Shown one piece after another: positions 1 through 37,734 of a DNA stretch of 37,734 bases. The notes under the pieces were generated by a model. The model saw only the letters and a program-made list of their open reading frames with translations. It was not told the DNA's origin and did no database searches. The stretch is from Lachnospiraceae bacterium (GTDB lineage Bacteria; Bacillota; Clostridia; Lachnospirales; Lachnospiraceae): NCBI GenBank assembly GCA_910575155.1, contig CAJTDX010000030.1:1-37734 (forward strand), written 5' to 3'. The position numbers and the translations under genes are program-made. Every line of letters starts with the position of its first letter. The first letter of the stretch is position 1.

Positions 1-783
1 AATCCTGCCTAAAACTATTATAAATCAAAACAGGAAGCTAAAACAGTAGTGGAGCCAGCCCCCTCCTATTTTCATTATAGGCTGTGATAACACTTCATGA
101 TTCGTTGAAAAGTCTATGCGATTACGCCATCTCAGACCCGAGTTTTCCAGTAGTCACTTCAATCCCTTCTACATTTTTGACTGCTTTACAGTAAACATAT
201 AAGACACAATCTACCATATATTTTATGCTAGATTTACCCAACAGCTAGTTTGAATGTTACTCATCTTATTGCCTTAACTGTTAGGATGAATATGATAATA
301 AAACTTATTTGACAGACTTATGCATTAATCAAAAGATGGGATAAAAACTATGCAAAAGAGAAAATGAAAGAAAAATGTTTTACATTTGTGTAAAATGCTG
401 ATTGAATTTACAAATATTTTCTGGTAATATTATACAAATAGTATTCTATGCTCAAAGAAAGAATATCAGGATACACCCATCTTAACCATAGTACAAAATA
501 CCTATGGAAAGAATCCAAATATAAAAATATTATATTGGTTGCAACAAAACAGTGTATAAATTTACATAAACAAATAAAGGCTCTAGCCGGCATGAATAAA
601 GAAATTGATAGTTCAAGTTGAAAATAACGACGATGATTGCGAGAGCGTGTTAATACGGAGTAATCGTCTTTCGTGTTTGGCGGGACACTACAAATGCCAG
701 TTGTTGTACTAAATTCTAGTCTATAAAAAAGGAATACTCTATATAATCAAGTTAACATTTGGGATAACTTTGAGATAAATTGG
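1..783. other. AT-rich non-coding region before the nucleotide cassette
   Basis: I see no convincing gene here. A 61-codon minus-strand frame at 408-593 has no ribosome binding site and reads like random AT-rich sequence. On the minus strand, a short open stretch ending in TAA at about 120-122 (tail KLGSEMA) may be the end of a decayed gene; I do not recognise it. Around 620-710 are short complementary pieces, for example GACGAT with ATCGTC and TACAA with TTGTA, that could fold into hairpins. A TATAAT at 742-747 is a plausible -10 box for the downstream genes, but I cannot point to a good -35 partner. Confidence 0.5.
742..747 (+). promoter_or_regulatory. candidate -10 box of the nucleotide cassette
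   Basis: A perfect TATAAT lies about 40 bases upstream of the first start codon of the five-gene cassette. No clear TTGACA-like -35 sits 16-18 bases upstream, so this is only a candidate. Confidence 0.35.
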
Positions 784-1341
784 GTGAAAACTATGAGGGA
801 AATTATAGCTGAAAATTATTTGTGTTTCTTAGCATTAATAGAAATGATAATAGAAGATGTAATAGGTAGAAATTGTATAGATCAATTTTATTTAGCGGAA
901 CATTTTGGCGTAACGGTTCCTGAAAATCACAAAATCAATGTTGACAATATTCAATACAGCAGTAAGGATAGAAACCTTGGGGTACATCTTGATGAAATAA
1001 AACTTAATACATTTTTTGAAACCACAGGTATTCCATTACGTGCAGATTATATTTATGTTAATCCTTTTGAAGAAAACAAAATAGACGATTTTAGATATCC
1101 TGCTCTACGGAACGGTAAATATATTGTTTATACATATAGCTACGGCGGATTATATGGGATACCTCAATCATATGATATTGGGCATGTTGCTCTATTAGAC
1201 GAAGTTATATCTGAAGATTGTGTTAGAATATATGATCCGGGGCCAAAGGGCTGTGGATATAAAGAAGTAAGCAGATTGAACTTATATGAGGCAATGAGGA
1301 TAATAAAAAGTGGTATATATATTTTTGAAATATGTATGTAA
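784..1341 (+). CDS. papain/C39-like cysteine peptidase-fold protein
   Basis: A 185-residue protein, first gene of the cassette. Near the N-terminus is NYLCFLALIE, followed by the short motif LAEHFGV. Toward the end come GHVALLDEV and YDPGPKGCG. This order (Cys in the first helix, then Gly-His, then an Asp in a DPG turn) is that of papain-like C39/BtrH-type folds, so Cys14, the His of GHVAL and the Asp of YDPG are a candidate triad. Such proteins cleave peptides or transfer acyl groups; the substrate here is unknown. It has no signal peptide and so is probably cytosolic. The start is GTG at 784 or ATG at 793, where GGGTG six or seven bases upstream could serve as a weak ribosome binding site. 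The stop is 21 bases before the next ORF and in the same frame. Fold assignment is moderate, function unknown. Confidence 0.6.
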   Translation: MKTMREIIAENYLCFLALIEMIIEDVIGRNCIDQFYLAEHFGVTVPENHKINVDNIQYSSKDRNLGVHLDEIKLNTFFETTGIPLRADYIYVNPFEENKIDDFRYPALRNGKYIVYTYSYGGLYGIPQSYDIGHVALLDEVISEDCVRIYDPGPKGCGYKEVSRLNLYEAMRIIKSGIYIFEICM

Positions 1342-1362
1342 TCATTAGAAAAATGTTCGTAT

Positions 1363-3117
1363 TTGGGGAAGAGGCGCAAATTTTTGAATAATTTAGTGAT
1401 AGATTCTCCCATTTTTTTACATTTTTTAAATAGAGAACTAAGGGAGACGGAGAATGTATGTTTTACTGATAGACAAATATTCAATTTTTTAATTGTTTCT
1501 TTACTTATGACAAATGAGTATGTTTATATTGGAGATGCAATCGTTTGGGAATGCCATGATGTTTTTCCAAAATCAATTGCACTATTGAGAAGAATGGAAG
1601 AGCTCGGATTGGCATATTTTGCCGGAACCGACATTGAGGTCAATTCATTTCTCTCTAAACGTAGGAGATTGTATTCACATGATAAAAAGAGATATCCGGT
1701 ATATTTTATTGATAATATTGTTGAACCACTTTGGGGTAAACATCATAAGAGAATCTACTTTGATACTACTGCAATTTTAGCAAGAAAGTTATTTGATATT
1801 GTTAACGGATTTGATGAGCAATGGAATGATGCATTTTCTAATAAAGACAAAGATGTAATTGCAAAAAGATTGGAATTTAGAAGAAAGAATAATATCGCAG
1901 TAACATACTCATTATTTAAATATGCAAAAATTAGGAACCAAAGCAAGTTAAACCTTAGAAGGAACATAATTACAAATTATAATCAACGATACATGGATGC
2001 ATTAAATGGAAAGATAATGACGGGGATACCTGGTTTGGAGTATTATGATTCTTTCCAAGATTCTGGATTCTTTTATGACTACGATTTGCATTTATACTTG
2101 TTGAATAAATTGGAAATTGTCGATAGAAATTGTTTTTTTGACGAGTCATCTAAATATAAGATTTTTGAGTTAAGAAAAACGCAGCACAAGATATATAAGG
2201 ATATCTTATTAGAAATCAAAAAGATTGCTAATGGGTTATATTGTGTTGAAGTTAATGGATATAATCATATCAATTTTCTAGATAAAAATATTTTAAAATT
2301 GCATACTAGTACGTGTATGCAAGAGAAACTCTATGCGCTTTGCCAGTTCTCACAAATGTTATGTAAAGAGAATAAATATTTTAAGGAGGGATATGAAAAA
2401 ATGTCAGATATAAATAGGAAAATACTATTACTTGCTGCTTCCCCACTAGAATACAAGATATTGAGAAAAGTAGTTAAGGAATATGGCATTGATTTTGAAG
2501 ATAAAAATCTAACTAAAAATGAAGACTTTTCCTATGCCGAATGTTATAGTGCACTACATTCTAAAATTTTCCTTGCAAGAACTGATATGGGAGCACTCAA
2601 TGCGTCAACCGTAATTGGCCAGCTAGCTGAAGAACTACAAACAACCTATATAATAATGGGTGGGATTTGCGCAGGAATGCGTCCCGATGAGCAACATATT
2701 GGAGACATAATAATTGCATCTCGAATGCACGATTATGATTTATCAAAGGAAACGGAGAATAGAAGGATATCAAGAGGTAACACAATGACTCCCAATAGAT
2801 ACTTATATGATAAGTTCCTGCTAGAGAGTTATGAAACTGAGTCAATGTCAGTTGATTCTGGGCTTTTTATTTCCTCAAATACTCTAGCAAATTCTCGTGA
2901 TTATGTAAATCAGGTACTGTCAGAATATCCAGATGCTAAAGGATATGAAATGGAAGGGTCTGGTCTCATGTATATATGCCAGTTATTCAAAGATAATTGG
3001 ATATTGGCTAAGGCAATTTGTGATTGGGGATATGATAAAACAGATAGTGATCAAGAATTAGCTGCTAGAAATAGCTACCAGTTTATTTTGAACACAATAG
3101 TTGAAAGGATAGGGTAA
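1363..3117 (+). CDS. unknown N-terminal domain fused to MTAN/PNP-type nucleoside phosphorylase
   Basis: A 584-residue ORF. Residues 1-346 match no domain I recognise: a soluble, charged region that may sense or bind a ligand. Residues 347-584 are a purine nucleoside phosphorylase/MTA-SAH nucleosidase domain. They show GGICAGMRP followed by IGDIIIA, then GYEMEGSGL with the ribose-binding Met and Glu at 530-531, then AICDWGYDKTDSD with the base-contacting Asp at 554. The family cleaves N-glycosidic bonds of nucleosides, with phosphate or water. The apparent start is TTG with no good ribosome binding site, in the same frame as the preceding gene. Residue 347 is an ATG with a strong AAGGAGGG site 11 bases upstream, so the phosphorylase domain may also be made alone. 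Six bases separate the stop from the uracil phosphoribosyltransferase gene, so the two are probably co-transcribed. Confidence 0.75.
   Translation: MGKRRKFLNNLVIDSPIFLHFLNRELRETENVCFTDRQIFNFLIVSLLMTNEYVYIGDAIVWECHDVFPKSIALLRRMEELGLAYFAGTDIEVNSFLSKRRRLYSHDKKRYPVYFIDNIVEPLWGKHHKRIYFDTTAILARKLFDIVNGFDEQWNDAFSNKDKDVIAKRLEFRRKNNIAVTYSLFKYAKIRNQSKLNLRRNIITNYNQRYMDALNGKIMTGIPGLEYYDSFQDSGFFYDYDLHLYLLNKLEIVDRNCFFDESSKYKIFELRKTQHKIYKDILLEIKKIANGLYCVEVNGYNHINFLDKNILKLHTSTCMQEKLYALCQFSQMLCKENKYFKEGYEKMSDINRKILLLAASPLEYKILRKVVKEYGIDFEDKNLTKNEDFSYAECYSALHSKIFLARTDMGALNASTVIGQLAEELQTTYIIMGGICAGMRPDEQHIGDIIIASRMHDYDLSKETENRRISRGNTMTPNRYLYDKFLLESYETESMSVDSGLFISSNTLANSRDYVNQVLSEYPDAKGYEMEGSGLMYICQLFKDNWILAKAICDWGYDKTDSDQELAARNSYQFILNTIVERIG
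2383..2403 (+). promoter_or_regulatory. internal ribosome binding site and start for the phosphorylase domain
   Basis: AAGGAGGG at 2383-2390 lies inside the 584-codon ORF. It is followed at 2401 by an in-frame ATG that begins exactly at the N-terminus of the phosphorylase domain (MSDINRKILLLAAS). This is the strongest Shine-Dalgarno sequence near the gene and suggests a separate 238-residue product or an ancestral gene boundary. Confidence 0.6.
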
Positions 3118-3123
3118 TTATTT

Positions 3124-3744
3124 ATGGTGATAAAAGTTTCAAATCCTGTTATAGAACATAATTTAACTCAATTTAGAGATAAGAATACTAGTTCATATAA
3201 TGCTCGAAAAAATGTTGAAAATATTTCATATGCCCTAGCAGGTGAAGTATCCAACTTACTCATGAGTAATCATGCTGATATTGAGACACCTCTTGGTAAG
3301 GCTGCAGGAACATTTATAAATGAAAAAATAGAGCTGGTACCAATCTTGAGAGCTGGACTTGCTATGCTTGGTTCTTTTGTTGAGTGTTTTCCTAATGCTC
3401 ATATTGGATTGGTTGCGTGCGAAAGACACCATGACCTTTCGGTAGGACTACTGTATGAGAAAATTAGTCGCTCTTTAAACGATAGAACTGTTATTATCCT
3501 AGATCCTATGTTGGCTACAGGTAATACCATTAACACGGTTATTAATTTACTTGAATCTCGCAATGCAAAAAAGATTATAGTCGTGTCAATTCTTGCCGTT
3601 CAAAGAGGCATTCATATGCTTCAGAATAGAGGGGATTATACAATAGTGACTGTACGAGATAATGAAGGATTAGATGAGAATAATTATATTTTTCCGGGTG
3701 TTGGCGATTCAGGAGATAGATTATATGGTAGTATTGAAGAATGA
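3124..3744 (+). CDS. upp: uracil phosphoribosyltransferase
   Basis: A 206-residue type I phosphoribosyltransferase, the usual length for bacterial Upp. It makes UMP from uracil and PRPP in the cytosol. The start shows the conserved early Upp pattern (NPVIEHNLTQFRD). The PRPP loop is DPMLATGNT at residues 127-135. The uracil-binding C-terminus is FPGVGDSGDRLYG, typical of Upp. The motif VPILRAGLAML matches the conserved PRPP-contacting stretch. It begins six bases after the phosphorylase-fusion stop, so it is likely translated from the same mRNA. Housekeeping upp genes usually sit with uracil permease or glyA. Here the neighbours are a phosphorylase, a Nudix protein and a deoxyribosyltransferase-like protein, so it is probably an accessory paralogue serving the cassette. 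The enzyme family is certain; the symbol reflects the family, not proof that this is the housekeeping copy. Confidence 0.9.
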   Translation: MVIKVSNPVIEHNLTQFRDKNTSSYNARKNVENISYALAGEVSNLLMSNHADIETPLGKAAGTFINEKIELVPILRAGLAMLGSFVECFPNAHIGLVACERHHDLSVGLLYEKISRSLNDRTVIILDPMLATGNTINTVINLLESRNAKKIIVVSILAVQRGIHMLQNRGDYTIVTVRDNEGLDENNYIFPGVGDSGDRLYGSIEE

Positions 3745-3783
3745 AGATTTTTATAGGATAGTATTTATATAGGAGGAGCGATC

Positions 3784-4389
3784 ATGGAAACCGTGTTGGC
3801 TGTGGACACATCAGAGGTACAAAAATATTTGAAAGACAAAAAATATTCTCTTCTTACGGAGAATAAGGATGATATTTTACAAACTATTTATAGTAATTAT
3901 AAATTCCTTATAAGAGAGGAAATTGAGGACGATTTAAATTATAGACAAATAATACCATATTGTCTTCTTAATTTTGGAGAAAAGTATATTCTTTTTGAGA
4001 GATTAAAAAAGCAATCAGAAATGCGACTGCATTTAAAGTTTTCTTTAGGAGCTGGTGGTCATATTAACGAACAGGATAATGCGAGTCGACCTTTTAAGAT
4101 TATAGAAAATTGCATTAAAAGAGAACTTGATGAGGAGATAATTGTAAATTATAATATATCTGAAAATATTACCTATATTGGAGCTATAAATGATGAAATG
4201 TCTGAGGTAAGCAAAAGCCATTTAGGGTTATTGTTTGAGATAAAATTAAAAGATAGTTGTTTCCAAGTTCGAGAAACCAATAAAATGACTGCACAATGGT
4301 TAACAGTTACAGATATATATTCAAAATATGACATTCTTGAAAATTGGTCTAAAATTACTCTTGATCAATATATTAACATTGTACAGTAG
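3784..4389 (+). CDS. Nudix-family hydrolase-like protein
   Basis: A 201-residue protein preceded by a strong AGGAGG site. It carries a Nudix box: GAGGHIN at residues 89-95 and RELDEE at 113-118, with Glu108 upstream. The family uses the Glu residues to bind Mg2+ and hydrolyses nucleoside diphosphates linked to another group. The loop between GG and RE is about seven residues longer than in the standard box, as in some phosphoesterase-type Nudix proteins. The N-terminal 75 residues are an extra region, and FGEKYILFER reads as the first strand of the fold. It lies between upp and a deoxyribosyltransferase-like gene, which suggests a nucleotide or nucleotide-sugar substrate. The actual substrate cannot be told from sequence. 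Confidence 0.8.
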   Translation: METVLAVDTSEVQKYLKDKKYSLLTENKDDILQTIYSNYKFLIREEIEDDLNYRQIIPYCLLNFGEKYILFERLKKQSEMRLHLKFSLGAGGHINEQDNASRPFKIIENCIKRELDEEIIVNYNISENITYIGAINDEMSEVSKSHLGLLFEIKLKDSCFQVRETNKMTAQWLTVTDIYSKYDILENWSKITLDQYINIVQ

Positions 4390-4446
4390 GAAAATGTCTT
4401 TAAAATAATTTCTATAAATGCTACAAGATTAAGAAAGGAGACTGTA

Positions 4447-5061
4447 ATGAATCTGAAAATTTATTTATCGGGCAGTATTAAGAAAGGAGACAAAGACGAA
4501 AGCAAGAAATCCTATTGGACGGATAATGATATTTCTATCCTTCGTAAGGTTCTTAGTCCTCGATATGATTTAACAATTTTAAACCCTGCTGTAAGAAGTG
4601 ATGATCTTTCGGATTTTAAGTCAACGTTTGGAAGGGATTTATTGCAAGTGTTTGCAAGTGACTTGATTATTGTAGATGCGAGAGATAAAAAAGGATTGGG
4701 AATAGGTTCTGAGATGACATTCGCAAAAGCTAATGGCATTCCGGTTATTTCTGTAACGCCTAAAAATAGCCAGTATAATAGAACCAATTTTGAGTATTTA
4801 GGACAAAAAATGGACAAATGGATACATCCTTTTATTGGTGGTTTAAGTGATTATATGCTTGAATCCGTTGAAGATGCGGCTAAGTTTATATTGAACAATT
4901 TTCCATTTAACAAATCAGAAATAAAAAATGTGGATTATCTTTATGAGGCAATGCAATATTATGTTGATACACAATTGAAAGCTGATGTGGAAATGTATAA
5001 TTTAGTCAAAGATGATGTGACTATAAATGAACGTATCGGTAAAATAAAAGAATTTTTGTGA
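4447..5061 (+). CDS. nucleoside 2-deoxyribosyltransferase-like protein
   Basis: A 204-residue protein with an AAGGAG site. It begins with IYLSGSI, as in the nucleoside 2-deoxyribosyltransferase/SLOG-like Rossmannoid superfamily. The stretch SDLIIVDARDKKGLGIGSEM ends in GIGSE, placing Glu89 where the nucleophilic Glu of deoxyribosyltransferases lies. FAKANGIPVISVTP follows as the next helix and strand. Family members swap bases on deoxynucleosides, hydrolyse deoxynucleoside monophosphates, or sense nucleotides. The C-terminal 50 residues are an acidic helical tail outside the core fold. It is the last gene of the cassette, with AT-rich DNA downstream. Fold is likely; whether it transfers, hydrolyses or only binds is open. 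Confidence 0.75.
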   Translation: MNLKIYLSGSIKKGDKDESKKSYWTDNDISILRKVLSPRYDLTILNPAVRSDDLSDFKSTFGRDLLQVFASDLIIVDARDKKGLGIGSEMTFAKANGIPVISVTPKNSQYNRTNFEYLGQKMDKWIHPFIGGLSDYMLESVEDAAKFILNNFPFNKSEIKNVDYLYEAMQYYVDTQLKADVEMYNLVKDDVTINERIGKIKEFL

Positions 5062-5525
5062 TTATATTACTTAAGAAAAGATTGGTATTAATGAATTATA
5101 TAACAAGAATACTTTATTACATTGAGCGAGTTGCTAAATAGAAATTTTATTCAAGGATTATATCATAACCCAAATATTATATAATTTTAAAGATTGTAAG
5201 TATATTTTCATATTCTACTATACAAGGGGCTGTCGCTTTAACGATTGAAAAATTGGAGGCGTCAGCTTCATTCTCTGATATTGTCAATATTGATTAACAC
5301 TTTTTCTTAAGGACATTCTTGTCTATGCTGTAGCGCCCAGGGAATTATAGTAGCTCTGGCGTTTAACCATAGACAGAGGTTCATCATTGGCAAATTAAAT
5401 CCTCCGATTATTCCAATAACCATTGTGTTGGTGCAAATGGGTGCATTTTCTATATACCAACCAACTATCATATGAAATTCTGCAAAATGAGGTGCATAGA
5501 CTCCAAGGTGTATCAACCGTGACGT
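5062..5525. other. intergenic junction between cassette and mobile block
   Basis: There is no convincing gene. The first 150 bases are very AT-rich like the cassette. Near 5224-5275, GGGGCTGTCGC and GGCGTCAGC are partly complementary and resemble an insertion-sequence end or a hairpin. A 56-base foldback follows at 5320-5375. Composition changes to GC-richer DNA at about 5530, where a broken gene begins. A 69-codon minus-strand frame (5307-5516) lacks recognisable motifs and is probably noise. Confidence 0.5.
5320..5375. repeat. 56-base foldback with two nested stems
   Basis: TGTCTATG (5320-5327) and CATAGACA (5368-5375) are perfect complements. Inside them, AGCGCCCAG and CTCTGGCGTT pair partly. 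The shape (two stems separated by small loops) recalls recombination sites or the subterminal hairpins of IS200/IS605-type elements. The sequence matches no site I know. Confidence 0.5.
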
Positions 5526-5846
5526 CTACACACAGTTGAAACATGCCCTCTTGAAAGAATCCGAAGCCTGCGATTTCTCCTTTTCCGCATATCCCATTGT
5601 GCCCACATCCTGCTTGGCAACCCATTCCCCGGTTTCCTTATCATAAACCGCCACCGTACAGTAAAGGTTCCCATCTATGCACTGGTGGCTCCTTTTCCAG
5701 CCGAACAGGCCGAACGTTTCGTCAAGGATGCGCTGGTCTACCCTTGCATCCTTATAAAGCAGCAGGCTAACCCCATTCTCTTTCACAATGGATACCCTGC
5801 ACTCAATTTCGTTTGCCTTCAAAAGCCGGATTGCATGATTTCCCAT
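5526..5846 (-). pseudogene. truncated Rad52-like (Sak3-type) annealing protein
   Basis: About 106 codons from an ATG at 5846 with AAGGA upstream. The sequence carries KDARVDQRILDE, IDGNLYCTVAV and EKEKSQASDSFKRACFN, the typical N-terminal half of Rad52/Sak3-like single-strand annealing proteins found next to YqaJ exonucleases in phages and conjugative elements. Full-length relatives run to about 200 residues or more, continuing with a GIGRELY-like stretch. Here the homology stops abruptly after RACFN and a TAG/TAA-type end follows, so the 3' half is gone. The break coincides with the shift in base composition to the AT-rich cassette, so it probably marks an insertion or deletion junction. The truncated product is unlikely to anneal DNA. 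Confidence 0.7.
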
Positions 5847-5887
5847 AGAACCATTCCTTTCCAAATGAAATAAAATAAGCAGACTCC

Positions 5888-6817
5888 CTATGCCGCCTTA
5901 ATCTGGAATCTGCGTGAGGACGTCACCTTTGCGTAATTCTGGTAGATTTCCGGCTGCTCCTGCTTCATCCGCTTCGCGTCAAGCCTTGTAGTGTCCACAT
6001 TGCTCCAAGATACCCTGTAATGCCCGTTTGTTGCCAGCTCGCTGTCCTGCATAAAAAGCTTGATTTCCTGTTCAATCTGCTTCTGCTCTGACTGCAGTTC
6101 CTCAATAAACCTAAGAATCTCTTCCCGGCGCGCCAGCCTGGCGTCAAAGCCCACAAGTTCAACCGCGCTTGCTTTTTTTGCGGTATGGAAATACTGTTCC
6201 AGGACCGAATCGTATATTTCGGAGCCGTCCGGGTCAGGGATTCGACCCGCTGCAATATGGTCATTCCAAAATTCCCCCTCCGCCTCAATTAACTGCTGTA
6301 TCAGGGCGTCATCCCATGTCAGCTTATGGTAAACAAACTCACGCCCCAAAATAACTGCCGCGATATACCAGGCGCGCTTTCCCGTAACCGCCATGTAATG
6401 ATAACACTGTATGGCGTAATGGGGCGGGATCTTGCCATCCGCCCATTTATCGGCATTGTAGGCGCTGGCTGTTTTACATTCCAGACCTGCGTCCTCTCCA
6501 ACCACCAGGCGGTCAACGTCCGCGATCATATACGGATGCCCCTTGCTGCGGTACATATAATTGCTGCGCCGCACCTTCAATCCGGTTGCTTCCATAAAAC
6601 GCACCGCTACATACTGTTCCAAATCATTCCCGATCCGGATGGCTTCGTTGTCCTTTTCTTCCACCCCATCCTTAGTCTTATCCCAGAACACCTTCATGGG
6701 GCTGCTGTATGGGTTCAGGCCACAGATTGCACCTGCATCTGAACCCCCAATCCCTGTCTTGCGGAGCTTCAGCCACTCTTCACGCGACATCCCCGCTGTC
6801 GGTATCTTCTCGTACAT
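5888..6817 (-). CDS. YqaJ-family exonuclease (lambda-exonuclease-like)
   Basis: A 309-residue protein of the YqaJ viral recombinase family, a PD-(D/E)XK exonuclease that resects double-strand ends for a partner annealing protein. Near the N-terminus is RKTGIGGSDAGAICG, the family signature. The nuclease motif follows as ADVDRLV (Asp) and GLECKT (Glu, Lys), with QCYHYMAV completing the site. The C-terminal third is helical and probably coiled. I start at 6817 because GGAGGG lies six bases upstream; a longer in-frame extension has no site. It lies next to the broken Rad52-like gene, its usual partner. A small hairpin (GTGCGT with ACGCAC, 6834-6849) precedes its ribosome binding site. Confidence 0.88.
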   Translation of the reverse strand: MYEKIPTAGMSREEWLKLRKTGIGGSDAGAICGLNPYSSPMKVFWDKTKDGVEEKDNEAIRIGNDLEQYVAVRFMEATGLKVRRSNYMYRSKGHPYMIADVDRLVVGEDAGLECKTASAYNADKWADGKIPPHYAIQCYHYMAVTGKRAWYIAAVILGREFVYHKLTWDDALIQQLIEAEGEFWNDHIAAGRIPDPDGSEIYDSVLEQYFHTAKKASAVELVGFDARLARREEILRFIEELQSEQKQIEQEIKLFMQDSELATNGHYRVSWSNVDTTRLDAKRMKQEQPEIYQNYAKVTSSRRFQIKAA

Positions 6818-6865
6818 AATTCCCTCCATTCCTGTGCGTTCCCACGCACTGTATGCAAAAAATAA

Positions 6866-6904
6866 TGGGGATGGCAAAACCTGTTGTAAGCTTCACCATC
6901 CCCA
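6866..6904 (-). terminator. intrinsic terminator after the DUF932 gene
   Basis: On the minus strand, TGGGGATGG and CCATCCCCA form a 9-bp stem followed by ATTATTTTTTG. It lies directly after the DUF932 stop and before yqaJ, and may act as an attenuator between the two. Confidence 0.7.
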
Positions 6905-6920
6905 GTCCCAGAACACGATA

Positions 6921-7853
6921 TCAGGCAGCGCACACCAACTGGTAAGCCCTGTCGATTAACGGATTTCCTTCCATTGTCTTTAAGAACAGGTTCTCCTTAT
7001 ACTTTGCCGTTTCCCGAAGCGGCTTTGCATGGGTCGCAAAATCGGACACCGCATTTACAAAACGGTAGCCGTTCTTCCCCACGCCCGCCAGGTCAGGGGC
7101 AAGGTAATAACGGTTCTTTAAATCCATGCGCAGCTTCTTCACGTTCCGTTCCGTGGTTTCGGTGGCGTCCGCGGCAATCGGGAGCAACAACTTAATGTAT
7201 TCCTCCACCGCCGCGTCGCTCACTTTCTTCCTGTCCAGTTTCTTTGACGCTTTGGAGAGCTCGTTCATATAGTTCTCCGCCATGAACAGCGTCATCCGTG
7301 CATCTTCCATCTTCGCCCCGATATCGCCCGTATGGTTTGCACACCAGATCCGGCTTGCATTGTCCAGAGCAAAGTTCAGCGTGTTCTGGCAGACCACGCG
7401 GACGGGCGTCATTGCCACTTTGATAGAGCCTGTCCCGTCGTGGGAGTTGCTGAACACCAGGTACGGCATAACCTTATCTTCTACAAGGCGGTACTGTTTG
7501 GGGAGCTTTGCCAGAATCCAGACTTTCCTTCCCTCTTTCAGCGACCCCGCCGTTTCATACTGGACGCCTTTCCCAAGAAGCTCGTCCGTAAACGCAAACG
7601 CGTCCCGGTTCTGCACAATCTGGTAACGCCCGGACACCACGCCCAACACTTTATGGTCCGAACTGCGGATGTTCGCGTAATAATCCTTTACAATATTCCC
7701 ATTTGCCGTAAAGATTTTTTCCTGTATGACATCCCAGTCCAACCCTGCCAGCCTCAGCGCGTCTTCTGATGTAGGCGCATCCTCTACCCTTGTCCCTAAC
7801 CCGTGCCATGGAGTTTCACGGACATAAAACATACTTTCCACTTCTGCTGCCAT
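6921..7853 (-). CDS. DUF932 phage/plasmid-like protein
   Basis: A 310-residue protein that reads as a full-length DUF932 (phage/plasmid-like, TIGR03299-type) member. Signature stretches are TPWHGLGTRV near the N-terminus, LGVVSGRYQIVQN, and VRVVCQNTLNFAL in the middle. Members are common in conjugative elements, plasmids and phages beside recombination genes, but their biochemical role is not established. Its ATG has AAGGAG upstream within the end of the preceding 54-codon gene, so the two are probably co-translated. An intrinsic terminator follows the stop. Confidence 0.85.
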   Translation of the reverse strand: MAAEVESMFYVRETPWHGLGTRVEDAPTSEDALRLAGLDWDVIQEKIFTANGNIVKDYYANIRSSDHKVLGVVSGRYQIVQNRDAFAFTDELLGKGVQYETAGSLKEGRKVWILAKLPKQYRLVEDKVMPYLVFSNSHDGTGSIKVAMTPVRVVCQNTLNFALDNASRIWCANHTGDIGAKMEDARMTLFMAENYMNELSKASKKLDRKKVSDAAVEEYIKLLLPIAADATETTERNVKKLRMDLKNRYYLAPDLAGVGKNGYRFVNAVSDFATHAKPLRETAKYKENLFLKTMEGNPLIDRAYQLVCAA

Positions 7854-7859
7854 AATACG

Positions 7860-8024
7860 TCACTCCTTCCTTTTTTCATTTGCATACTCAACAGCAATCC
7901 CAATCATACCTGCCACTGCCACAAACACAGTGGCGATTTCCTTTGCCATCCGACAGTTCCTTTCCCATCTGGCGTTATCCTGTACCGCCATGTCACTGCC
8001 GGAGGTTCGCATTTCAAATTCCAT
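7860..8024 (-). CDS. small 54-residue membrane protein of the mobile block
   Basis: ATG at 8024 is preceded by GGAGGG, and the ORF ends at TGA 7860-7862, six bases before the DUF932 start. The product has a hydrophilic first 30 residues and one probable membrane segment (ATVFVAVAGMIGIAVEYA), ending in EKRKE. No family is recognised. The strong ribosome binding site and close packing between neighbours make it likely to be real despite its size. Confidence 0.6.
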   Translation of the reverse strand: MEFEMRTSGSDMAVQDNARWERNCRMAKEIATVFVAVAGMIGIAVEYANEKRKE

Positions 8025-8039
8025 AAGGCCCTCCTTCCC

Positions 8040-8120
8040 TTACCAGCCAAGGACAACAGCCACTGACAGCAGCCCTTGCAGCACAATCTTGATAATAGAA
8101 ACGATTTGTTCCAGATGCAT
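8040..8120 (-). CDS. 26-residue hydrophobic peptide of the mobile block
   Basis: GGAGGAAAG lies just upstream of ATG 8120. The ORF encodes 26 residues, mostly hydrophobic (IVLQGLLSVAVVLGW at the C-terminus), so a single-pass membrane peptide. It ends 15 bases before the next small gene, which suggests one transcript for 8120 to 6921. Such tiny membrane peptides can be type I toxins or simply uncharacterised mobile-element genes; I cannot decide. Confidence 0.45.
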   Translation of the reverse strand: MHLEQIVSIIKIVLQGLLSVAVVLGW

Positions 8121-8236
8121 AATTCTTTCCTCCTTCCTTTGTGTGCGTAGTTTAACCAGGAAAATTTCGTTTTACGGCATTTGCCTGCCTGGCCCGGAAA
8201 CCACTGAATTTCTCAGGCTCTATGGCTCTGCCACAA

Positions 8237-8253
8237 AGAAATAATATATTTCT
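8237..8253. promoter_or_regulatory. palindrome between divergent genes
   Basis: AGAAAT-AATAT-ATTTCT is a perfect 6-bp palindrome with a 5-base spacer. It lies in the space between the minus-strand small genes and the plus-strand excisionase-like gene, so it could be an operator controlling both. No footprint-type evidence is available. Confidence 0.35.
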
Positions 8254-8320
8254 TTTTTACAGAAACAACCGAATAAGGCATAAGATAAACTGCCACAACA
8301 CAAAAAGGAGGTTTGCTGAA

Positions 8321-8497
8321 ATGCTAGAAGAATACCCAGATATCCTTACCCCGCAGGAAGCAATGGAAATTTTGGGGATTGGAAAGAATTTATTTTACAA
8401 GCTATTAAAAGATAAGACTATCCCGGCAAAACGTATTGGTGGAAAAGTTTGGAGGATTGCAAAAAAAGACCTCGTTTCCTATATTTCCACTAATTAG
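8321..8497 (+). CDS. excisionase-like helix-turn-helix protein
   Basis: A 58-residue protein with the HTH_17/MerR-like excisionase pattern: LTPQEAMEILGIGKNLFYKL, then a strand-like KRIGGKVWRIAKKDLVSYI. Such proteins bend DNA at attachment sites for excision or act as small regulators. I place the start at ATG 8321, which has AAAAAGGAGG nine bases upstream; a longer in-frame ORF lacks such a site. It is divergent from the YqaJ/DUF932 genes, and a bidirectional terminator follows. No intact integrase for it is in the window. Confidence 0.8.
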   Translation: MLEEYPDILTPQEAMEILGIGKNLFYKLLKDKTIPAKRIGGKVWRIAKKDLVSYISTN

Positions 8498-8617
8498 TGG
8501 ACGTTTAGAAGAATCAAATTTATTCTTTATTTTTTGATTTCCATAATGACAGATATTCCCTAAATCTACTGGTGTGGCAGCGGGAAACTTGGCGCATAAC
8601 TATGAACTGTATGTATC

Positions 8618-8663
8618 AAAAGGAAGATAGCGGCTTCATCTGACGGGCCTCTATCTTCCTTTT
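8618..8663. terminator. bidirectional intrinsic terminator
   Basis: AAAAGGAAGATAG (8618-8630) and CTATCTTCCTTTT (8651-8663) form a 13-bp stem with a 20-base loop, with A-rich and T-rich flanks. It lies between the convergent excisionase-like and radC genes and can serve both. Confidence 0.8.
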
Positions 8664-8756
8664 GCTTTTAAACTTCATTGAGAGCTTTTTTTCTCGCGGC
8701 ATCTTTTTCTATACAATTTGGAACAATGCCTGTCCTTGCATTACCCATATTACCTT

Positions 8757-9230
8757 CTATTTCTGCATTTTCCCATTCTCTGAGAAACTAAAATAGGAAT
8801 CCCTGCTTATAATAATATGGTCGCAGAAGATAATCCCCAGCAAATCCGCCGCTTCCTGTATCCTCCCTGTCACCCGGAAATCTTCTCCCGACGGCTGGAT
8901 GCGGCCGCCTGGATGGTTATGCACAGCCACAATATCCGAAGCCCCGCACAACAGCGCCCTCACAAATATCTCCCTCATGCCTGCCACTGTAGCCCGACAT
9001 GTTCCATGCGACACTTCAAAAAAGCCGATTGGATTACACCCTGCCGTCATGCAGATCAGGTACATATATTCTTCCGCCCTATCCGACAGACGGAACACAT
9101 CTTCCATGACCTTCACAATTTTCTCTGGGCTGTCCAGGCTGTCAATATTTGAATAATCTTTGGAAAATTCTTTTTCCAGGACATTCCTGCCATCCCCATC
9201 AAGGACAATTCCGTATTTCTGTATCTTCAT
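8757..9230 (-). CDS. radC: RadC-family JAB-domain protein
   Basis: A 157-residue protein with the MPN/JAMM metal site HNHPGG followed by PSGED, and an upstream Glu in GFFEVSHGT. This is the RadC family pattern. It lacks the N-terminal helix-hairpin-helix region of chromosomal RadC and is the short form seen in mobile elements. The role of RadC is unsettled: it was once linked to DNA repair and is frequent in conjugative elements and phages. The start is ATG 9230 with AAAGGTGG upstream; GTG at 9239 is possible. It sits 76 bases downstream of the DNA ligase gene on the same strand, so they may be co-transcribed and share the terminator at 8618-8663. Confidence 0.85.
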   Translation of the reverse strand: MKIQKYGIVLDGDGRNVLEKEFSKDYSNIDSLDSPEKIVKVMEDVFRLSDRAEEYMYLICMTAGCNPIGFFEVSHGTCRATVAGMREIFVRALLCGASDIVAVHNHPGGRIQPSGEDFRVTGRIQEAADLLGIIFCDHIIISRDSYFSFSENGKMQK

Positions 9231-9306
9231 CCCTGCCACCTTTTCCTTTTGCCCTGTTTCATCGCCGCAACCTCTGCATGTGTACCATCTCTTTTTCCCA
9301 CAAACC

Positions 9307-11352
9307 CTATGCCGGAATCCTGTCCAGAAATTCCTGTTCCGTAAGAACCGGTACGCCGAGCTCCTTCGCCTTTGCCAGCTTGCTGCCCGGCTTCTCCCCG
9401 CAGATAAGGTAATCCGTCTTTTTTGTTACAGAACTCCCGGCGGTTGCGCCGATACTCTTAAGCTTTTCATGGATAGTATTCCGGGTAAAATTCTCTAATT
9501 TCCCTGTCACCACAATGGTGCATCCTGCGAATGGACTGTCCTTTGCACTATTATTTTTCTTTGCCATAGTAATATCCTCCATCTTCTTAAAATGTACTTC
9601 TTCCTGCAATGTTTTCCAAAGTTTCAGGTTCCTGCCATCATGGAACCATTCCCAGATGTTCCGGCACATTGTTTCCCCAACCCCCGGAAGGGATGTAAAA
9701 TCGAAGCGGTTCACCGCTGCTTTCGTAAACTCCTGCAAATCACCCTGGAAATGCCGCTCCAATATCCTTCCTGCTGTCCTCCCAATCATCGGGATATCCA
9801 TTGCAACCACATATCTTGTAAATGTGGTATTGCGGCTTTTCTCAACAGAACCAATGATTTTCTGATAAGACTTCTCGCCAAAGCCTTCCATCTGCACAAT
9901 TTCATCCTTGTAACGGTCCAAATGGTAAAAATCACGGAATGTCTTTAAGAAGCCCATTTCCATAAACTTCTCAATCGTTGCCTCTGAAATCCCCGAAATA
10001 TCCATAGCTTTCTTTTCCGCAAAATGGATAAATTTGTGCAGGATTTGGCTGCTACAGTCCGGATTATCGCAATGCAGCGTTTCAACCAGTTTCCCCTTAT
10101 CCCCGGCTCTTGAAAAAATCCTTGTCGGTTTCCCACAACACGGGCAGGCTTCCGGAATCATATTTTTCTTATAATGACCTCGGTCAAGATTTTCCTCAAT
10201 ATGCGGGATGATCATGTTCCGCTTGGAAACGAGTACCCTGCAGCCGGGGAAAAGCTCCAGATCCCTGATGAATGACAGGTTATGCAGGCTCGCCCTTGAT
10301 ACAAAACAGCCGTCAATCTCCACTGTGTCAAAGACTGCCACAGGCGCAATTTCCCCGGAACGTCCCGGCTCCCATTCGATAGAGCGGAATACAGTTTCAA
10401 ATGTATCATCTTCAAATTTGAAGGCGATACCATCCTTGTAATGGTGTCCGGTTCTCCCACATCTCTTTGAATAAGAAAGGCTGTCATAACGGAACACCAT
10501 ACCATCAATCGGGATCTGCCCGTCCTCTGCAAGTACCTTTAAACATCCAATCCGGTCCTCAATCTCCCGGAGGGTTACATGTTCCGGCAGAAATGTAAAA
10601 GGACAGATAGCAAAACCAAGCTCCCCTGCCGCTTCCAGCAGCCTTCCCCGGCTGTCAGCGATTTTTCCGAAATCCTCCATCCCCTCTAAAATATTGAAGG
10701 CATAGAAATACACATGGCGTTCCTTACAGTCCGCCGGATTTAATAACCGGATTGAACCGGAAGCGAGGTTTCTTGCATTGCAGACTTCCTTATCGGCCTT
10801 CCCCAAAATTCTGCTCTTCATTTCCTCAAAATCATCCTTATGGATCAAGCCCTCGCCCGTGATAACGAGCCGCCCCTTACGCGGTATTCTTGTCGGCACA
10901 TTATAAAAAGCGGGGATATTGTGGGTGATTACCTCTCCAATATCCCCGTCCCCTCTTGTGGATGCCTCCACAAGATGACCGTTTTCATACACAAGCTTAA
11001 TTGTAAGCCCGTCCAGTTTCAGCATCAGCAATGCTGGTGCCTTCCCCGCCATCTGCAGCAGTTCCTCCGTCTGCTTCGTCTTGTCCAGGCTTAACAGCGG
11101 GATCGGATGTCTTACCTTCTCCAATTTGCTGACCGGAATAAAGCCGACGGTCTGCGTTGGTGAATTACTCAAGATAATGCCTGTCTTCTTTTCCAGCTTC
11201 TGCAATTCATCAAAAAGATGGTCATAGAGTGCATCCGGCACACTCGGTTTCGCTTTGTTGTAATACTCGTGGCGGTACTGGTTTAACTTTGCTACAAGCT
11301 CTGCAACCTTTTTTACATCTTCATCCTTTTGTTTTCTGTGAACTTTCTGCAT
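9307..11352 (-). CDS. ligA: NAD-dependent DNA ligase, mobile-element form
   Basis: A 681-residue enzyme that seals nicks with NAD+. Domain order is that of LigA: Ia domain with YRHEYYNKAKP, then the adenylation site KLDG (Lys about 112), then an OB fold, a four-Cys zinc finger (CPCCG ... CDNPDC), helix-hairpin-helix repeats (GFGEKSYQKI, LPGVGETM) and a C-terminal BRCT domain (GCTIVVTGKLENFT to the end). Length is close to chromosomal LigA. The context of radC and a recombination block suggests an accessory copy used in replication or repair of the element. I chose ATG 11352, ten bases after AAGGAG; GTG at 11361 is too close to that site. Its start overlaps the end of the upstream 104-codon gene by 32 bases, implying translational coupling. 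Confidence 0.9.
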   Translation of the reverse strand: MQKVHRKQKDEDVKKVAELVAKLNQYRHEYYNKAKPSVPDALYDHLFDELQKLEKKTGIILSNSPTQTVGFIPVSKLEKVRHPIPLLSLDKTKQTEELLQMAGKAPALLMLKLDGLTIKLVYENGHLVEASTRGDGDIGEVITHNIPAFYNVPTRIPRKGRLVITGEGLIHKDDFEEMKSRILGKADKEVCNARNLASGSIRLLNPADCKERHVYFYAFNILEGMEDFGKIADSRGRLLEAAGELGFAICPFTFLPEHVTLREIEDRIGCLKVLAEDGQIPIDGMVFRYDSLSYSKRCGRTGHHYKDGIAFKFEDDTFETVFRSIEWEPGRSGEIAPVAVFDTVEIDGCFVSRASLHNLSFIRDLELFPGCRVLVSKRNMIIPHIEENLDRGHYKKNMIPEACPCCGKPTRIFSRAGDKGKLVETLHCDNPDCSSQILHKFIHFAEKKAMDISGISEATIEKFMEMGFLKTFRDFYHLDRYKDEIVQMEGFGEKSYQKIIGSVEKSRNTTFTRYVVAMDIPMIGRTAGRILERHFQGDLQEFTKAAVNRFDFTSLPGVGETMCRNIWEWFHDGRNLKLWKTLQEEVHFKKMEDITMAKKNNSAKDSPFAGCTIVVTGKLENFTRNTIHEKLKSIGATAGSSVTKKTDYLICGEKPGSKLAKAKELGVPVLTEQEFLDRIPA

Positions 11353-11635
11353 TGTTTTCACGCTCCTTCCTTGATTTTTTTGTATTGTTTATTATGATTG
11401 CCTTTGGCACTTCCATGACTACGGCAGGGTAGCCGTTCAGGAGCATGCCAAAAGCATAATCATCAGCAGTTCTCTTACTTTCAAAATAGAGAGGTTCTTT
11501 TCCTGATTTCCAATAAAAACATTTTTCAGGATAATTCTCTATCTTGGTAACATAGGCAATCCCTTCCGCAAAGAGCAGCCCAATTGCCCATCGGCAGTCT
11601 ACTTTTGCTGTATTTTTGTGTATTCTTACAGACAT
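11321..11635 (-). CDS. hypothetical protein coupled to ligA
   Basis: A 104-residue protein with GGAGGATAA before its ATG. No domain is recognised. It has Trp, Tyr and Cys in a compact first 80 residues (for example CFYWKSGKEPLYF) and a lysine-rich, probably disordered tail (NNTKKSRKERENN). Its 3' end overlaps the ligA start by 32 bases, and it is the first gene of the 11635-8757 transcript. Upstream at 11670-11690, TTGTC and GACAA form an inverted repeat that could be an operator. It may be a ligA accessory, but that is only inferred from coupling. Confidence 0.6.
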   Translation of the reverse strand: MSVRIHKNTAKVDCRWAIGLLFAEGIAYVTKIENYPEKCFYWKSGKEPLYFESKRTADDYAFGMLLNGYPAVVMEVPKAIIINNTKKSRKERENNAESSQKTKG

Positions 11636-11777
11636 ATTTATCCTCCGTTTTCATAGATTTTTTCTTTCCTTGTCGCATTGTTTCTGACAATAACTTTAAT
11701 TACATTACCGTCCGAACTGCTATTTAAAGCATTTTAACTCTCCGAATTTCTTCTCTTTCTCCATTTTGAACGCAAAA

Positions 11778-11816
11778 TAAGGGTATTCCATCCAAAATAG
11801 AGATAGAATACCCTTA
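11778..11816 (-). terminator. hairpin after the Rpn-type gene
   Basis: TAAGGGTATTC and GAATACCCTTA form an 11-bp stem with a 17-base loop. It is 56 bases past the Rpn-type stop on the minus strand, followed by a short T-rich stretch, so a likely terminator. Confidence 0.65.
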
Positions 11817-11871
11817 CAACCATTACATTATTTATCATTTTTATATGGAATTATCACCAATCTTCGTAAAT

Positions 11872-12810
11872 CTACACAGTCTGCTTTCCGTACTGCTCTA
11901 AATAAGTGGCTGCCTGTTCTAAGGACAAACCTATCCATTCCTGCATCCTTTTCAAAATCGTTGCATCGTCAAGACCATCTTTTTTTCCCATTTTTATAAG
12001 CATCTTGGCTTCACCCTGACTTATTCCTTCGCGACGCAGTTTCTCTGATTCAGTCTCAATTACTGTTCCTCCCATAACACTCACCAACCTTTCTTCATTT
12101 TTATTCCCATTTGTGATATGCGTAATAATGGTGTTTACAAATCCCGTTAAGTCTAACAGTTCTTCATCGGACAGCTCCCCCGTCTTATATAAGCGGCTCA
12201 TTTCATCCCTGAAATATTCCAGGTCGTTTACCGCATTTTCTATATTTCCCTCAGATGCAATTTCCTTCTCGTACCTTGCAATATAAAACGGAATGTAAGG
12301 GAACAGCCGCTTTTCCACAATGTATTCCTTCGTAAATTCCTCAATGATTACGTTTTCTGATTCATATTTTACTTCCTGTCCGTCCGGAAACCGGAAAGTA
12401 ATCGTTGTGTTTTTCGGTGTCCTTTCCGTCCGCTTAACATAGATTACAGAAAACCTCGGCATGGGAATAGTCGCATGACCGATATCCCACGTTGCGGACT
12501 GTCTGGCAACAATGAAAGCATATTCTGCAATCCGGATCGCCATAGAACCGTCATCATAACTCTGGCACTCCAATAAATAAACTTCACTTCCAATTTTAAT
12601 CAGAAAATCTGAAATCTGCTCCTCTATTTCTTTGCTTCCGTCTGCCGTCTCGCTCTCAGTCAGGTATCCTTCTGACGGCAAAACCTCAACTTTCGCATCC
12701 AACGGATATTCTTTATCAAAAATATCATTGATTACGGATATAAACAATCTCTTGTGTTTACTCTTCATGGTCTTAAACACATTATCGTAATCAGGCGTCT
12801 TTTTCTGCAT
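11872..12810 (-). CDS. Rpn-family recombination-promoting nuclease / transposase-like PD-(D/E)XK protein
   Basis: A 312-residue protein of the Rpn/PDDEXK_2 family, frequent in multiple copies in Lachnospiraceae. The N-terminus DYDNVFKTMKSKHKRLF is typical. The nuclease core is visible as SDFLIKIGSEVYLLECQ, with Asp and then ECQ in place of ExK, followed by MAIRIAEYAF. The C-terminus has the helical region KLRREGISQGEAKMLIKMG and a short repeat-like tail common in this family. Such proteins nick DNA and raise RecA-independent recombination in E. coli; here the role is unproven. It lies 61 bases downstream of a small antitoxin-like gene, probably in one transcript. Confidence 0.8.
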   Translation of the reverse strand: MQKKTPDYDNVFKTMKSKHKRLFISVINDIFDKEYPLDAKVEVLPSEGYLTESETADGSKEIEEQISDFLIKIGSEVYLLECQSYDDGSMAIRIAEYAFIVARQSATWDIGHATIPMPRFSVIYVKRTERTPKNTTITFRFPDGQEVKYESENVIIEEFTKEYIVEKRLFPYIPFYIARYEKEIASEGNIENAVNDLEYFRDEMSRLYKTGELSDEELLDLTGFVNTIITHITNGNKNEERLVSVMGGTVIETESEKLRREGISQGEAKMLIKMGKKDGLDDATILKRMQEWIGLSLEQAATYLEQYGKQTV

Positions 12811-12871
12811 ATTCTTTTATCCTTTCGCAATATTTTCCAGCCTGACAGTAAGGAAATCAGTCAGACCTCCA

Positions 12872-13126
12872 TTATTTTTCTACTCCAAACATTTTTGCGA
12901 TTTCATCGTTGCTTTCATCTATATCATATCCCTCTGCAATAAGTCTCTGCCCTTTCAGACTACCCATCCTGCGTGGTTTGCTCTGGTGTTCAGACGAACT
13001 TCCGACACTCTCCTTATGATCCAATGGAAGCACAACCTGCTTTACCACTTCTAACAAAATCCGCATAATGTCATCGGATAACCCTTCTATGGTTTCCATA
13101 AATTCCATTTGTAATGTTGACATCAT
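12872..13126 (-). CDS. small antitoxin-like protein
   Basis: An 84-residue protein (or 83 from the second Met) with GAGGTGG upstream. Its arrangement is a helical N-terminal half, a polar linker (SSSEHQSKPRRMG) and a C-terminal SLKGQRLIAEGYDIDESNDE. That pattern resembles small antitoxins whose C-terminal tail, often LKGK followed by acidic residues and a D-E pair, covers a PIN toxin (DUF2281-like). No PIN gene is adjacent; the next gene is the Rpn-type nuclease. Either the toxin was lost or the pair with the nuclease is itself the unit. Family call is tentative. Confidence 0.5.
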   Translation of the reverse strand: MMSTLQMEFMETIEGLSDDIMRILLEVVKQVVLPLDHKESVGSSSEHQSKPRRMGSLKGQRLIAEGYDIDESNDEIAKMFGVEK

Positions 13127-13532
13127 ACCACCTCATTCCTGACTTTAATTTTTATGAATATGTCGAACCCAGCAGTTTCTATACATTAATAAACCATATT
13201 TTTCACCTATTTTCTAACAAGTAAAAATGTTTCCTCATTACAAATACCTTTTAAATCTACAACCTCATCATATCATATTCAGCATTTTCCCTCAACCGCA
13301 AAATTTCCTGCTGTCCCAAAACATTAGCGATGCCCTGCATCACCACAATGAATCAGCGAATTAAAATCCTTCCTGCAGATTTTTCATTCTGTGACACCGC
13401 TTTTCCCTTACACGAATTTTGGTTACTCGGTCTGTCTGTCCGCATAGTCCAATCAGGTTCAAATCGTCCATTCGCTCTCCATATATTGTATTTTTTATCC
13501 ATTCTTTATACCATATATGGTGCCATCATTAT
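13127..13532. other. intergenic scar beside the uvrB fragment
   Basis: I see no gene. Three short plus-strand frames overlap one another and lack ribosome binding sites. At 13408-13417 is TTACACGAAT, the same 10-mer (inverted) that clusters at 13942-14023 on the other side of the uvrB fragment. The rest of uvrB is not present here. Confidence 0.5.
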
Positions 13533-13889
13533 TTAATCGTTGTAGGACACAAAATACTCCACTGCATTCTCAGGGAACATCTCCTTGAATTCTCCATAAA
13601 GCTGCGCCGCAAGCGTCTTGTTGTGGGCGATAACCAGCGTTGGCTTCTGCAATTCCTGAATGACATTCGCCATCGTAAATGTCTTGCCGGAACCCGTAAC
13701 CCCTAGTAAAGTCTGGAATTGGTTGCCCTCTTTGAAGCCTTTGACCAGCTCGGCGATGGCCTGCGGCTGGTCGCCTGTGGGCTTGTAGGGGGCTTGTAAT
13801 TTAAAAGCCTGCCCCTCCTTTGGGCTGCTTTTATGAGCAAGTAGCTGACTATTGTCAGCGGATTGCGAATTTCCTCTCTTATCTGGCAT
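13533..13889 (-). pseudogene. uvrB: 5' fragment of uvrB
   Basis: A 118-codon ORF with TTGGAGG before its start. From residue 30 it reads as Uvr[18 protein letters not shown], the Walker [11 protein letters not shown], then [20 protein letters not shown] and AVEYFVSY. It stops one residue later, where UvrB continues DYYQPEAY, so about 540 codons are missing. UvrB is the damage-verification helicase of nucleotide excision repair; this fragment keeps Walker A but no helicase. The 29-residue N-terminal extension is unusual. The cut may mark a recombination or attachment junction. A second uvrB 5' fragment lies at 24620-24722. Confidence 0.85.
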
Positions 13890-18909: not shown

Positions 18910-19149
18910 AAGAGTCTCCTTTCTGTTTTCTCTGCATAATTCCTTTTTTCTTGATCTTCTTTTATCAGCTGCTTCATCACGAATGCTTCCCGAAAGCTCC
19001 ATAAATATTGCCTAATGGATTCTGGAAAGCACTGCCTGGTTATAAACCAAACCCCCATCTATCCGTTCTGACCTGACATCCTCCGGAAAATTATAATAAT
19101 CGTCTTCCGTATAAAATTTTTCCTGTACCTGCGCCCTTGCCATTGACAT
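18910..19149 (-). pseudogene. Uma2-family endonuclease remnant with amber stop
   Basis: From ATG 19149 (GGAGG upstream) the frame reads YTEDDYYNFPEDVRSERIDG and then AVLSRIH before TAG. After the stop the same frame continues AIFMELSGSIRDE, which matches the Uma2 (DUF820) pattern SRIHQ-x-x-x-MELS. So the stop probably replaced a Gln codon (CAG to TAG). About 70 codons remain, and the catalytic C-terminal half is gone where the LRR protein gene begins. Confidence 0.7.
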
Positions 19150-29930: not shown

Positions 29931-30032
29931 TTTGCCATTCCTCCTGTACTTCTGCGATGCTTTTCCATACCTCGCTAAATACTCCATCATTTTCATGTCC
30001 TCCTCTTGCATGTTAAACTTTTACATCGCATA

Positions 30033-37678: not shown

Positions 37679-37734
37679 AAAAACACTCCTTTTCGATAAG
37701 AATTTCCATATCCTAATTCTTACCAAAAAGGAGC

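Follow-up and report, generated by a model that had tools for sequence, protein, structure and literature searches.

Effectors with a purine nucleoside phosphorylase (PNP) domain degrade (d)ATP, according to PMC10952713, and a recent machine-learning survey places a purine phosphorylase domain among predicted nucleotide-modifying defence parts, as a prediction only (PMC13092281). Here we describe a cassette of five genes, P1–P5, at positions 784–5061 of a 37,734-nucleotide stretch of DNA from a Lachnospiraceae bacterium (contig CAJTDX010000030.1; the whole stretch is called the window below). The second gene encodes P2, in which a new N-terminal domain precedes a phosphorylase domain of the methylthioadenosine/S-adenosylhomocysteine (MTA/SAH) nucleosidase (MTAN) type, and our firm result is that P2 represents a new, rare and apparently mobile protein family that is mostly accompanied by nucleotide enzymes. 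As to function, we tentatively favour a cassette spread by horizontal transfer whose products attack or edit nucleotides, probably as a defence against phages. A partial survey of the literature, which does not establish absence from print, yielded no description of this five-gene set.

The five-gene cassette and its counterpart in Bacterium D16-51

P1–P5 were all found as open reading frames (ORFs) in one direction (+) where an earlier note on this DNA had placed them, with intergenic gaps of 21, 6, 39 and 57 bases (starts as listed), which bears out its description of a closely packed, co-directional set.

784..1341, +: P1, 185 aa, with a possible cysteine peptidase fold of the C39/papain-like kind (ATG 793 as its likely start); ORF with a homologue at locus L024
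1363..3117, +: P2, 584 aa (577 aa from the likely TTG 1384), new N-terminal domain plus MTAN/phosphorylase domain
1384..2400, +: P2 N-terminal domain, new; motif [IV][YF]LHF[LF][ND]RE
2416..3114, +: P2 MTAN/phosphorylase domain; E363, E531, D554, R471 and K550 invariant
3124..3744, +: P3, uracil phosphoribosyltransferase (UPRT, Upp), second genomic copy; UPRTase 7.4e-50
3784..4389, +: P4, TM1382-type Nudix protein with a RELDEE box; PDB 3e57_A 1e-23
4447..5061, +: P5, nucleoside deoxyribosyltransferase-like (NDT-like) protein; Glu89 kept in 3/3 rows

The same five genes occur in the same order in Bacterium D16-51 (locus L024). BLASTN of the window against this locus returned a single block, 793–5053 against 9398–13659, with 75% DNA identity, and no similarity outside the five-gene block. 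Protein identities for P1–P5 are 71–81%, and dN/dS is 0.073 for P1, 0.077 for P2, 0.099 for P3, 0.114 for P4 and 0.059 for P5, values that are rough, as dS lies at 1.3–2.0. The five genes are a co-conserved unit under purifying selection. Comparison with L024 also makes ATG 793, the first position of the homologous block, the probable start of P1, and TTG 1384, nine bases past GGGGAAGAGG, the likely start of P2, the first gap then being 42 bases. Upstream of the block, L024 carries Tn7-type transposition genes. They encode TnsA, a Mu-type transposase in the position of TnsB, a TniB-like ATPase in that of TnsC, and TnsD/TniQ, whose gene stops 2.4 kb short of the block, with an IS110 transposase in the interval. 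Taken as a whole, the evidence supports a discrete, nucleotide-centred cassette that has apparently moved horizontally. Predicted promoters and terminators (32 and 2 sites) were as many as in shuffled sequence (32.0 and 2.3).

The P2 family and its phosphorylase domain

The fusion of an unknown domain to an MTAN-type phosphorylase, proposed in the earlier note, is confirmed on both sides. The C-terminal half matches Pfam PNP_UDP_1 (residues 353–567, 9.5e-13), has the MTAN fold by structure (5cce, E 7.9e-16, TM 0.85 by target) and matches PDB 4l0m by sequence (9.4e-26), and its catalytic triad (E363, E531, D554) is invariant in 12/12 aligned P2 rows. The AlphaFold model of P2 has a mean pLDDT of 83.6, with the N-terminal domain forming a block of pLDDT 81–96 over residues 11–250. 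When this domain alone was compared with the PDB by Foldseek, 0/54 matches reached 0.001; a known fold for it was rejected, the best E being 0.26. In Pfam searches with 12 P2 members, the only family common to all was PNP_UDP_1 (NUP also fell in the phosphorylase half), and otherwise there were single-member matches only, at E 0.019 or worse. Eight N-terminal residues (R24, E25, E63, Y104, R110, Y111, Y114, F115) are invariant in 13/13 rows. P2 defines a family with an N-terminal domain that is covered by neither Pfam nor a PDB fold search.

Two further residues of the phosphorylase domain set P2 apart from housekeeping MtnN, the MTA/SAH nucleosidase. R471 and K550 are each present in 12/12 P2 domains, in 9/10 domains that we labelled effector-type and in 0/12 housekeeping domains; by analogy with MTAN structures, R471 would meet the substrate at its 5' end. 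P2 scored 56.9 bits against the NCBIfam MTA/SAH nucleosidase equivalog NF004079, whose cut-off is 169. In two trees, the second omitting six rows (four long, two near-copies), the housekeeping MtnN domains formed a clade (100/99 in both) with the P2 rows outside it, and with all rows included a branch of 99/97 joined P2 to NACHT-type rows, with Detocs-type rows on the opposite side. The references behind these labels include mtnN genes beside dgt and btuF (L119, L121), a NACHT fusion on a Pantoea agglomerans plasmid (L116) and a PDC-M60A/B/C locus on an Agrobacterium tumefaciens plasmid (L118; 0, 5.5e-69 and 3.6e-180), PDC-M60 being presumably the same as Detocs. The latter locus (L118:3-4265) adjoins genes annotated as an ABC-three-component system. 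PADLOC matches were rejected as proof of defence, an ordinary MtnN (L119) matching the effector profile and, at 1.9e-11, PDC-M60C.

Full-length P2 relatives were found in 2/397 family genomes, the window's own and that of Catenibacillus scindens (G067, locus L031), and 15 further family genomes matched P2 in the phosphorylase half only. The N-terminal domain alone was detected in 1/398 phylum genomes and 1/392 order genomes, in both cases the window's own. A scan of species genomes confirmed 13 P2 loci from 46 pattern matches, a lower bound, since the scan relies on short conserved peptides, and one further P2 lies on Rhizobium etli plasmid pA; P2 relatives are rare in each set searched and spread over five phyla. 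P1 and P4 each matched 1/200 family genomes, the own genome. A phage origin was rejected: P2 was found neither in phage records at 1e-5 nor in viral contigs (two peptide patterns), and P5 was not found in viral contigs. P1 and P5 were also absent from plasmid records at 0.01.

Partner enzymes and genomic surroundings

The partners of P2 in the window were assigned with differing firmness. P3 is Upp, as claimed earlier, by full-length UPRT homology (UPRTase PF14681, 7.4e-50; PDB 1o5o, 1.7e-36), and in NCBIfam it scores 187.1 bits with NF001097 (above 114) and 185.7 bits with TIGR01091 (below 208.35). A better-scoring Upp (3.8e-78) is encoded on contig C19 of the same genome. A housekeeping pyrimidine salvage operon, which the earlier note had considered, was accordingly rejected, the cassette being rare in relatives (P2 in 2/397 family genomes) and its Upp not the sole copy. 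The Nudix identity of P4, also claimed earlier, is secured because it matches TM1382 (PDB 3e57_A), which we take to have a Nudix fold, over residues 4–199 (1e-23) and has the Nudix box RELDEE; Pfam NUDIX (PF00293) stays below its cut-off (E 0.073, 13.5 bits against 21.1). For P5 the proposed deoxyribosyltransferase likeness agrees with Glu89, presumably catalytic and retained in 3/3 aligned rows, and with Pfam Nuc_deoxyrib_tr (PF05014, E 0.0069), but the score of 17 bits is below the gathering score of 28.8. P1 fared least well: no match was found in Pfam, PADLOC, NCBIfam or PDB, its sole homologue found is the L024 copy (76% over residues 4–182), and the earlier C39-like peptidase claim, which no C39 profile match backs, is left with Cys14, His134 and Asp151, a triad assigned by eye and retained in both copies.

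When two near-identical loci (L026 and L027, 99.7%) are counted once, there are 14 P2 loci, and their operons fall largely into four types. Type A comprises the window and L024. Type B, in Catenibacillus (L031), encodes an AAA_28-like kinase, a Vut_1 transporter (2.9e-24), a purine-type phosphoribosyltransferase (PRTase), an NDT-like protein 34% identical to P5, P2 and an adenylate-kinase-like kinase. In type C, a flavin adenine dinucleotide (FAD) oxidoreductase and a DUF7768 protein accompany P2 at four loci in three phyla (L025, L029, L030, L033); the sequence of L032 starts partway through the FAD gene and includes DUF7768, and L028 has before P2 only an FAD tail with stops and no DUF7768. 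DUF7768 is frequent in viral contigs (64/198 pattern matches confirmed; loci L048–L111) and hence not specific. P5 and DUF7768 could not be supported as a single family (hhalign probability 1.4, E 0.035), each being only weakly like PF05014. In type D (L034, L035, L036), a HARE-HTH plus Nudix-like protein precedes P2, with the Nudix box retained in L034 only and the L035 and L036 partners sequence-related to that of L034. P4 aligns over its residues 2–197 with the L034 partner, in the Nudix-like half of the latter (pairwise alignment of the two sequences, 24%, E 6e-10; hhalign, 85%, E 6e-6), a homology that links the Lachnospiraceae-type cassette to an alphaproteobacterial gene pair. In L034, a tRNA-Leu gene (11881–11965), a typical integration place, lies ~40 bases past the HARE-HTH-Nudix/P2 unit. 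The remaining loci are L019, with P2, a flavoprotein piece (by eye), an HD phosphohydrolase and a DNA methylase, and L026/L027, without a nucleotide-enzyme partner; the P2 relative of L027 (9875–11701) has one internal stop where its near-copy in L026 is open.

By tool result, 11/14 loci thus have an open nucleotide-enzyme partner, L028 has a remnant, L019 has one by eye and one locus has none. In the P2 tree, type C rows (including that of L028) fall on both sides, with four label changes, three of them forced by well-supported branches, which indicates that partners were exchanged or lost. As to random shuffling of neighbours, named in the earlier note as a point that would tell against its reading, the neighbours do vary, but mostly within one pool (NDT-like, PRTase, Nudix, kinase, FAD). 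Changing but mostly nucleotide-enzyme partners offer a natural variant set for finding a common substrate.

Relatives of the FAD protein occur apart from these operons as well. On a Streptomyces scopuliridis plasmid (L045:6298-10798), hpt, the FAD oxidoreductase, a Nudix gene, a HAD phosphatase and an MFS gene lie in one direction; the set has the appearance of an operon for nucleotide modification or export, and no P2 is annotated there. Fifteen Rhizobium plasmid records have an FAD relative, with the context viewed in two (L046, L047); on R. johnstonii pRlX4 (L046:5259-9087) it lies with genes for a nucleotidyltransferase-family protein and a thymidylate-kinase-like protein (by eye), and acyl-homoserine-lactone synthase genes are near this locus.

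Operon GC content differs from that of the surroundings in L034 and L035 (46% vs 63–66%), L033 (56% vs 67%) and L031 (31% vs 36–46%). In the window, the cassette has 31.7% GC and the neighbouring 5521–11361 has 47.9%, in line with the AT-richness remarked on earlier, but the AT-rich stretch covers both flanks too (1–783, 31.8%; 5062–5520, 32.2%). The cassette lies between two features.

4..117, strand not assigned: contig-end repeat that matches the end of contig C19 at 98% identity; the assembly breaks here, on the left side of the cassette
5529..11361, −: neighbouring block encoding YqaJ, DUF932, RadC and NAD-dependent DNA ligase, plus one + strand HTH gene at 8222

A search of this block against a genome of the same genus (G176) gave no match and, being without a positive control, is uninformative. 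Farther along the window are a short helicase-like ORF that ends early (13533–13889, −; ResIII 4.7e-14) and presumably resembles the start of UvrB, an 1165-aa protein with leucine-rich-repeat-like and other repeated domains (15505–19002, −; by eye), a 1655-aa protein with many similar repeats (25044–30011, −; by eye) and, at the right-hand end of the contig, a transposase of the Mutator family (36464–37726).

Possible functions and comparison with known systems

The earlier note had proposed a defence or nucleotide-modification system; the discrete, apparently mobile and nucleotide-centred character of the cassette and a phosphorylase domain that lies outside MtnN and has marker residues in common with most of the Detocs- and NACHT-type domains examined bear it out in part, and defence itself goes beyond these results. 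In the anti-phage function that we tentatively prefer, the P2 phosphorylase domain would cut the base off a 5'-phosphorylated nucleotide, not methylthioadenosine, because P2 has the Arg and Lys that are missing in MtnN and present in most effector-type relatives. Its N-terminal domain, alone or with partners, may sense infection or an unusual nucleotide and switch the nucleosidase on. The Nudix protein would convert triphosphate to monophosphate, the NDT-like protein would remove or exchange bases and Upp would turn uracil into UMP, and the three could shape the nucleotide pool, by depleting it or by producing a non-standard nucleotide that serves as signal or poison. The points counted for defence are the mobile contexts, the foreign GC content of L031, L033, L034 and L035, the effector-like phosphorylase, the apparent reduction of type D to a gene pair, and neighbours of a defence-like kind at three loci, namely an N6-methylase (L030), a mad3-like ATPase and an integrase (L029) and the methylase and HD protein of L019; of ten flank proteins of our choosing, four matched PADLOC. 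Also counted in its favour are the block shared with L024, the rarity of P2 and its spread over five phyla, the homology of P4 with the L034 partner and the lack of a P5 relative in the 198 family genomes searched beyond the two P2 carriers.

A number of observations weigh against defence. The flanks were chosen by the analyst with no control set of loci, six of those ten chosen proteins, which come from loci other than L034–L036, show no defence family, and nor do ten flank proteins of L034–L036 in Pfam. Besides P2, no killing domain is recognisable in the cassette. Operon GC content is not foreign in L029 (67% vs 66%) and hardly so in L030 (60% vs 64%). The branch joining P2 to NACHT-type rows falls to 89/87 without long rows, and P2 does not cluster with the Detocs-type rows. 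The effector labels were set by the analyst, with 6/10 rows already seen in the motif table beforehand; effector-like by architecture are only L116 and L117 (near-copies), L118 and L012 (its receiver domain by eye), and L012 is without R471. PADLOC profiles match ordinary MtnN too (L119, 2.3e-15). The 2/200 positives of the P5 profile are its own row sources, so only the 198 negatives inform. Finally, a transporter and kinases are encoded in the Catenibacillus operon, as would be expected of salvage.

A more specific version, a new class of nucleotide-based immunity in which exchangeable partner enzymes make or expose a non-standard nucleotide that the P2 N-terminal domain senses, thereby activating a pool-destroying nucleosidase, strikes us as unlikely; it would have a precedent in Kongming, as presented in PMC12948488.

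Salvage or synthesis of a modified nucleoside (a nutrient, tRNA or DNA precursor, signal or natural product), the alternative in the earlier note, is kept as a serious rival by the Catenibacillus and Streptomyces operons, and we hold it to be quite possible, if on balance improbable. Here, bases would be exchanged or freed by NDT-like and MTAN domains, PRTase and kinases would assemble the nucleotide, and Nudix and FAD enzymes would trim phosphates and modify the base, respectively. The Catenibacillus set of Vut_1 transporter, purine-type PRTase, NDT-like protein and two kinases, the plasmid-borne hpt-FAD-Nudix-HAD-MFS set, the FAD relative with a thymidylate-kinase-like gene (by eye) on a Rhizobium plasmid, the FAD-DUF7768-P2 association at four loci in three phyla and the full-length UPRT homology of the window's Upp all fit such a pathway. 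It is harder to reconcile with operons of types A, C and D, where no transporter gene was seen, with type D, whose apparently only two genes (HARE-HTH-Nudix-like and P2) are too few for a pathway, with a phosphorylase domain outside housekeeping MtnN, and with a PRTase that varies by operon between uracil and purine types. We give little credence to nucleotide-pool cleaning, in which nucleotides that are damaged, modified by phage or antibiotic in nature would be broken down by Nudix and NDT-like proteins, with MTAN freeing the base and Upp recovering uracil: the predicted Nudix, NDT-like, nucleosidase and UPRT activities could close a route from odd nucleotide to UMP, and the mobile distribution suits it, but it leaves the new P2 domain, P1, HARE-HTH and the FAD partners unexplained. 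That these are passenger or decaying metabolic genes on mobile elements with no joint function, as the location of the cassette, with a contig-end repeat on one side and a mobile-type block on the other, the varying partners, the stop inside P2 of L027 and the FAD remnant of L028 might suggest, is very improbable given dN/dS of 0.06–0.11 in all five genes, P4 and P5 counterparts beside P2 in other lineages and the FAD-DUF7768-P2 triad in three phyla.

If the cassette is immune, as we tentatively prefer, it adds a new domain to nucleosidase effectors; if metabolic, it points to a modified nucleotide not yet known, with genes moving between bacteria.

Among described systems, CBASS differs in that no CD-NTase match was found among the five proteins (Pfam, PADLOC, NCBIfam). 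TM1382, a Thermotoga Nudix protein (PDB 3e57), is a full-length homologue of P4 listed only as an uncharacterised protein, and we know of no link between it and P2. MtnN shares fold and catalytic residues with P2 but forms a separate clade, is without Arg471 and Lys550 in 12/12 and has no N-terminal domain. The component families of Kongming are not among the Pfam matches of the five proteins. Its likeness lies in a non-standard nucleotide, dITP, as immune second messenger, according to PMC12948488. Detocs/PDC-M60 shares with P2 a PNP/MTAN-fold domain placed C-terminally in a larger protein, the Lys of column 550, the Arg of column 471 (in L118) and a plasmid location, whereas the cassette is without a kinase, receiver, M60A or M60B match (Pfam, PADLOC), hits only the M60C profile via the PNP domain, has an unrelated N-terminal domain in P2 and extra nucleotide enzymes, and falls on the opposite side of the tree. 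In NACHT-PNP proteins (L116) the phosphorylase is N-terminal, and no NACHT domain was matched in P2, but in the trees their phosphorylase domain falls on the same side as P2 (99/97; 89/87 without long branches).

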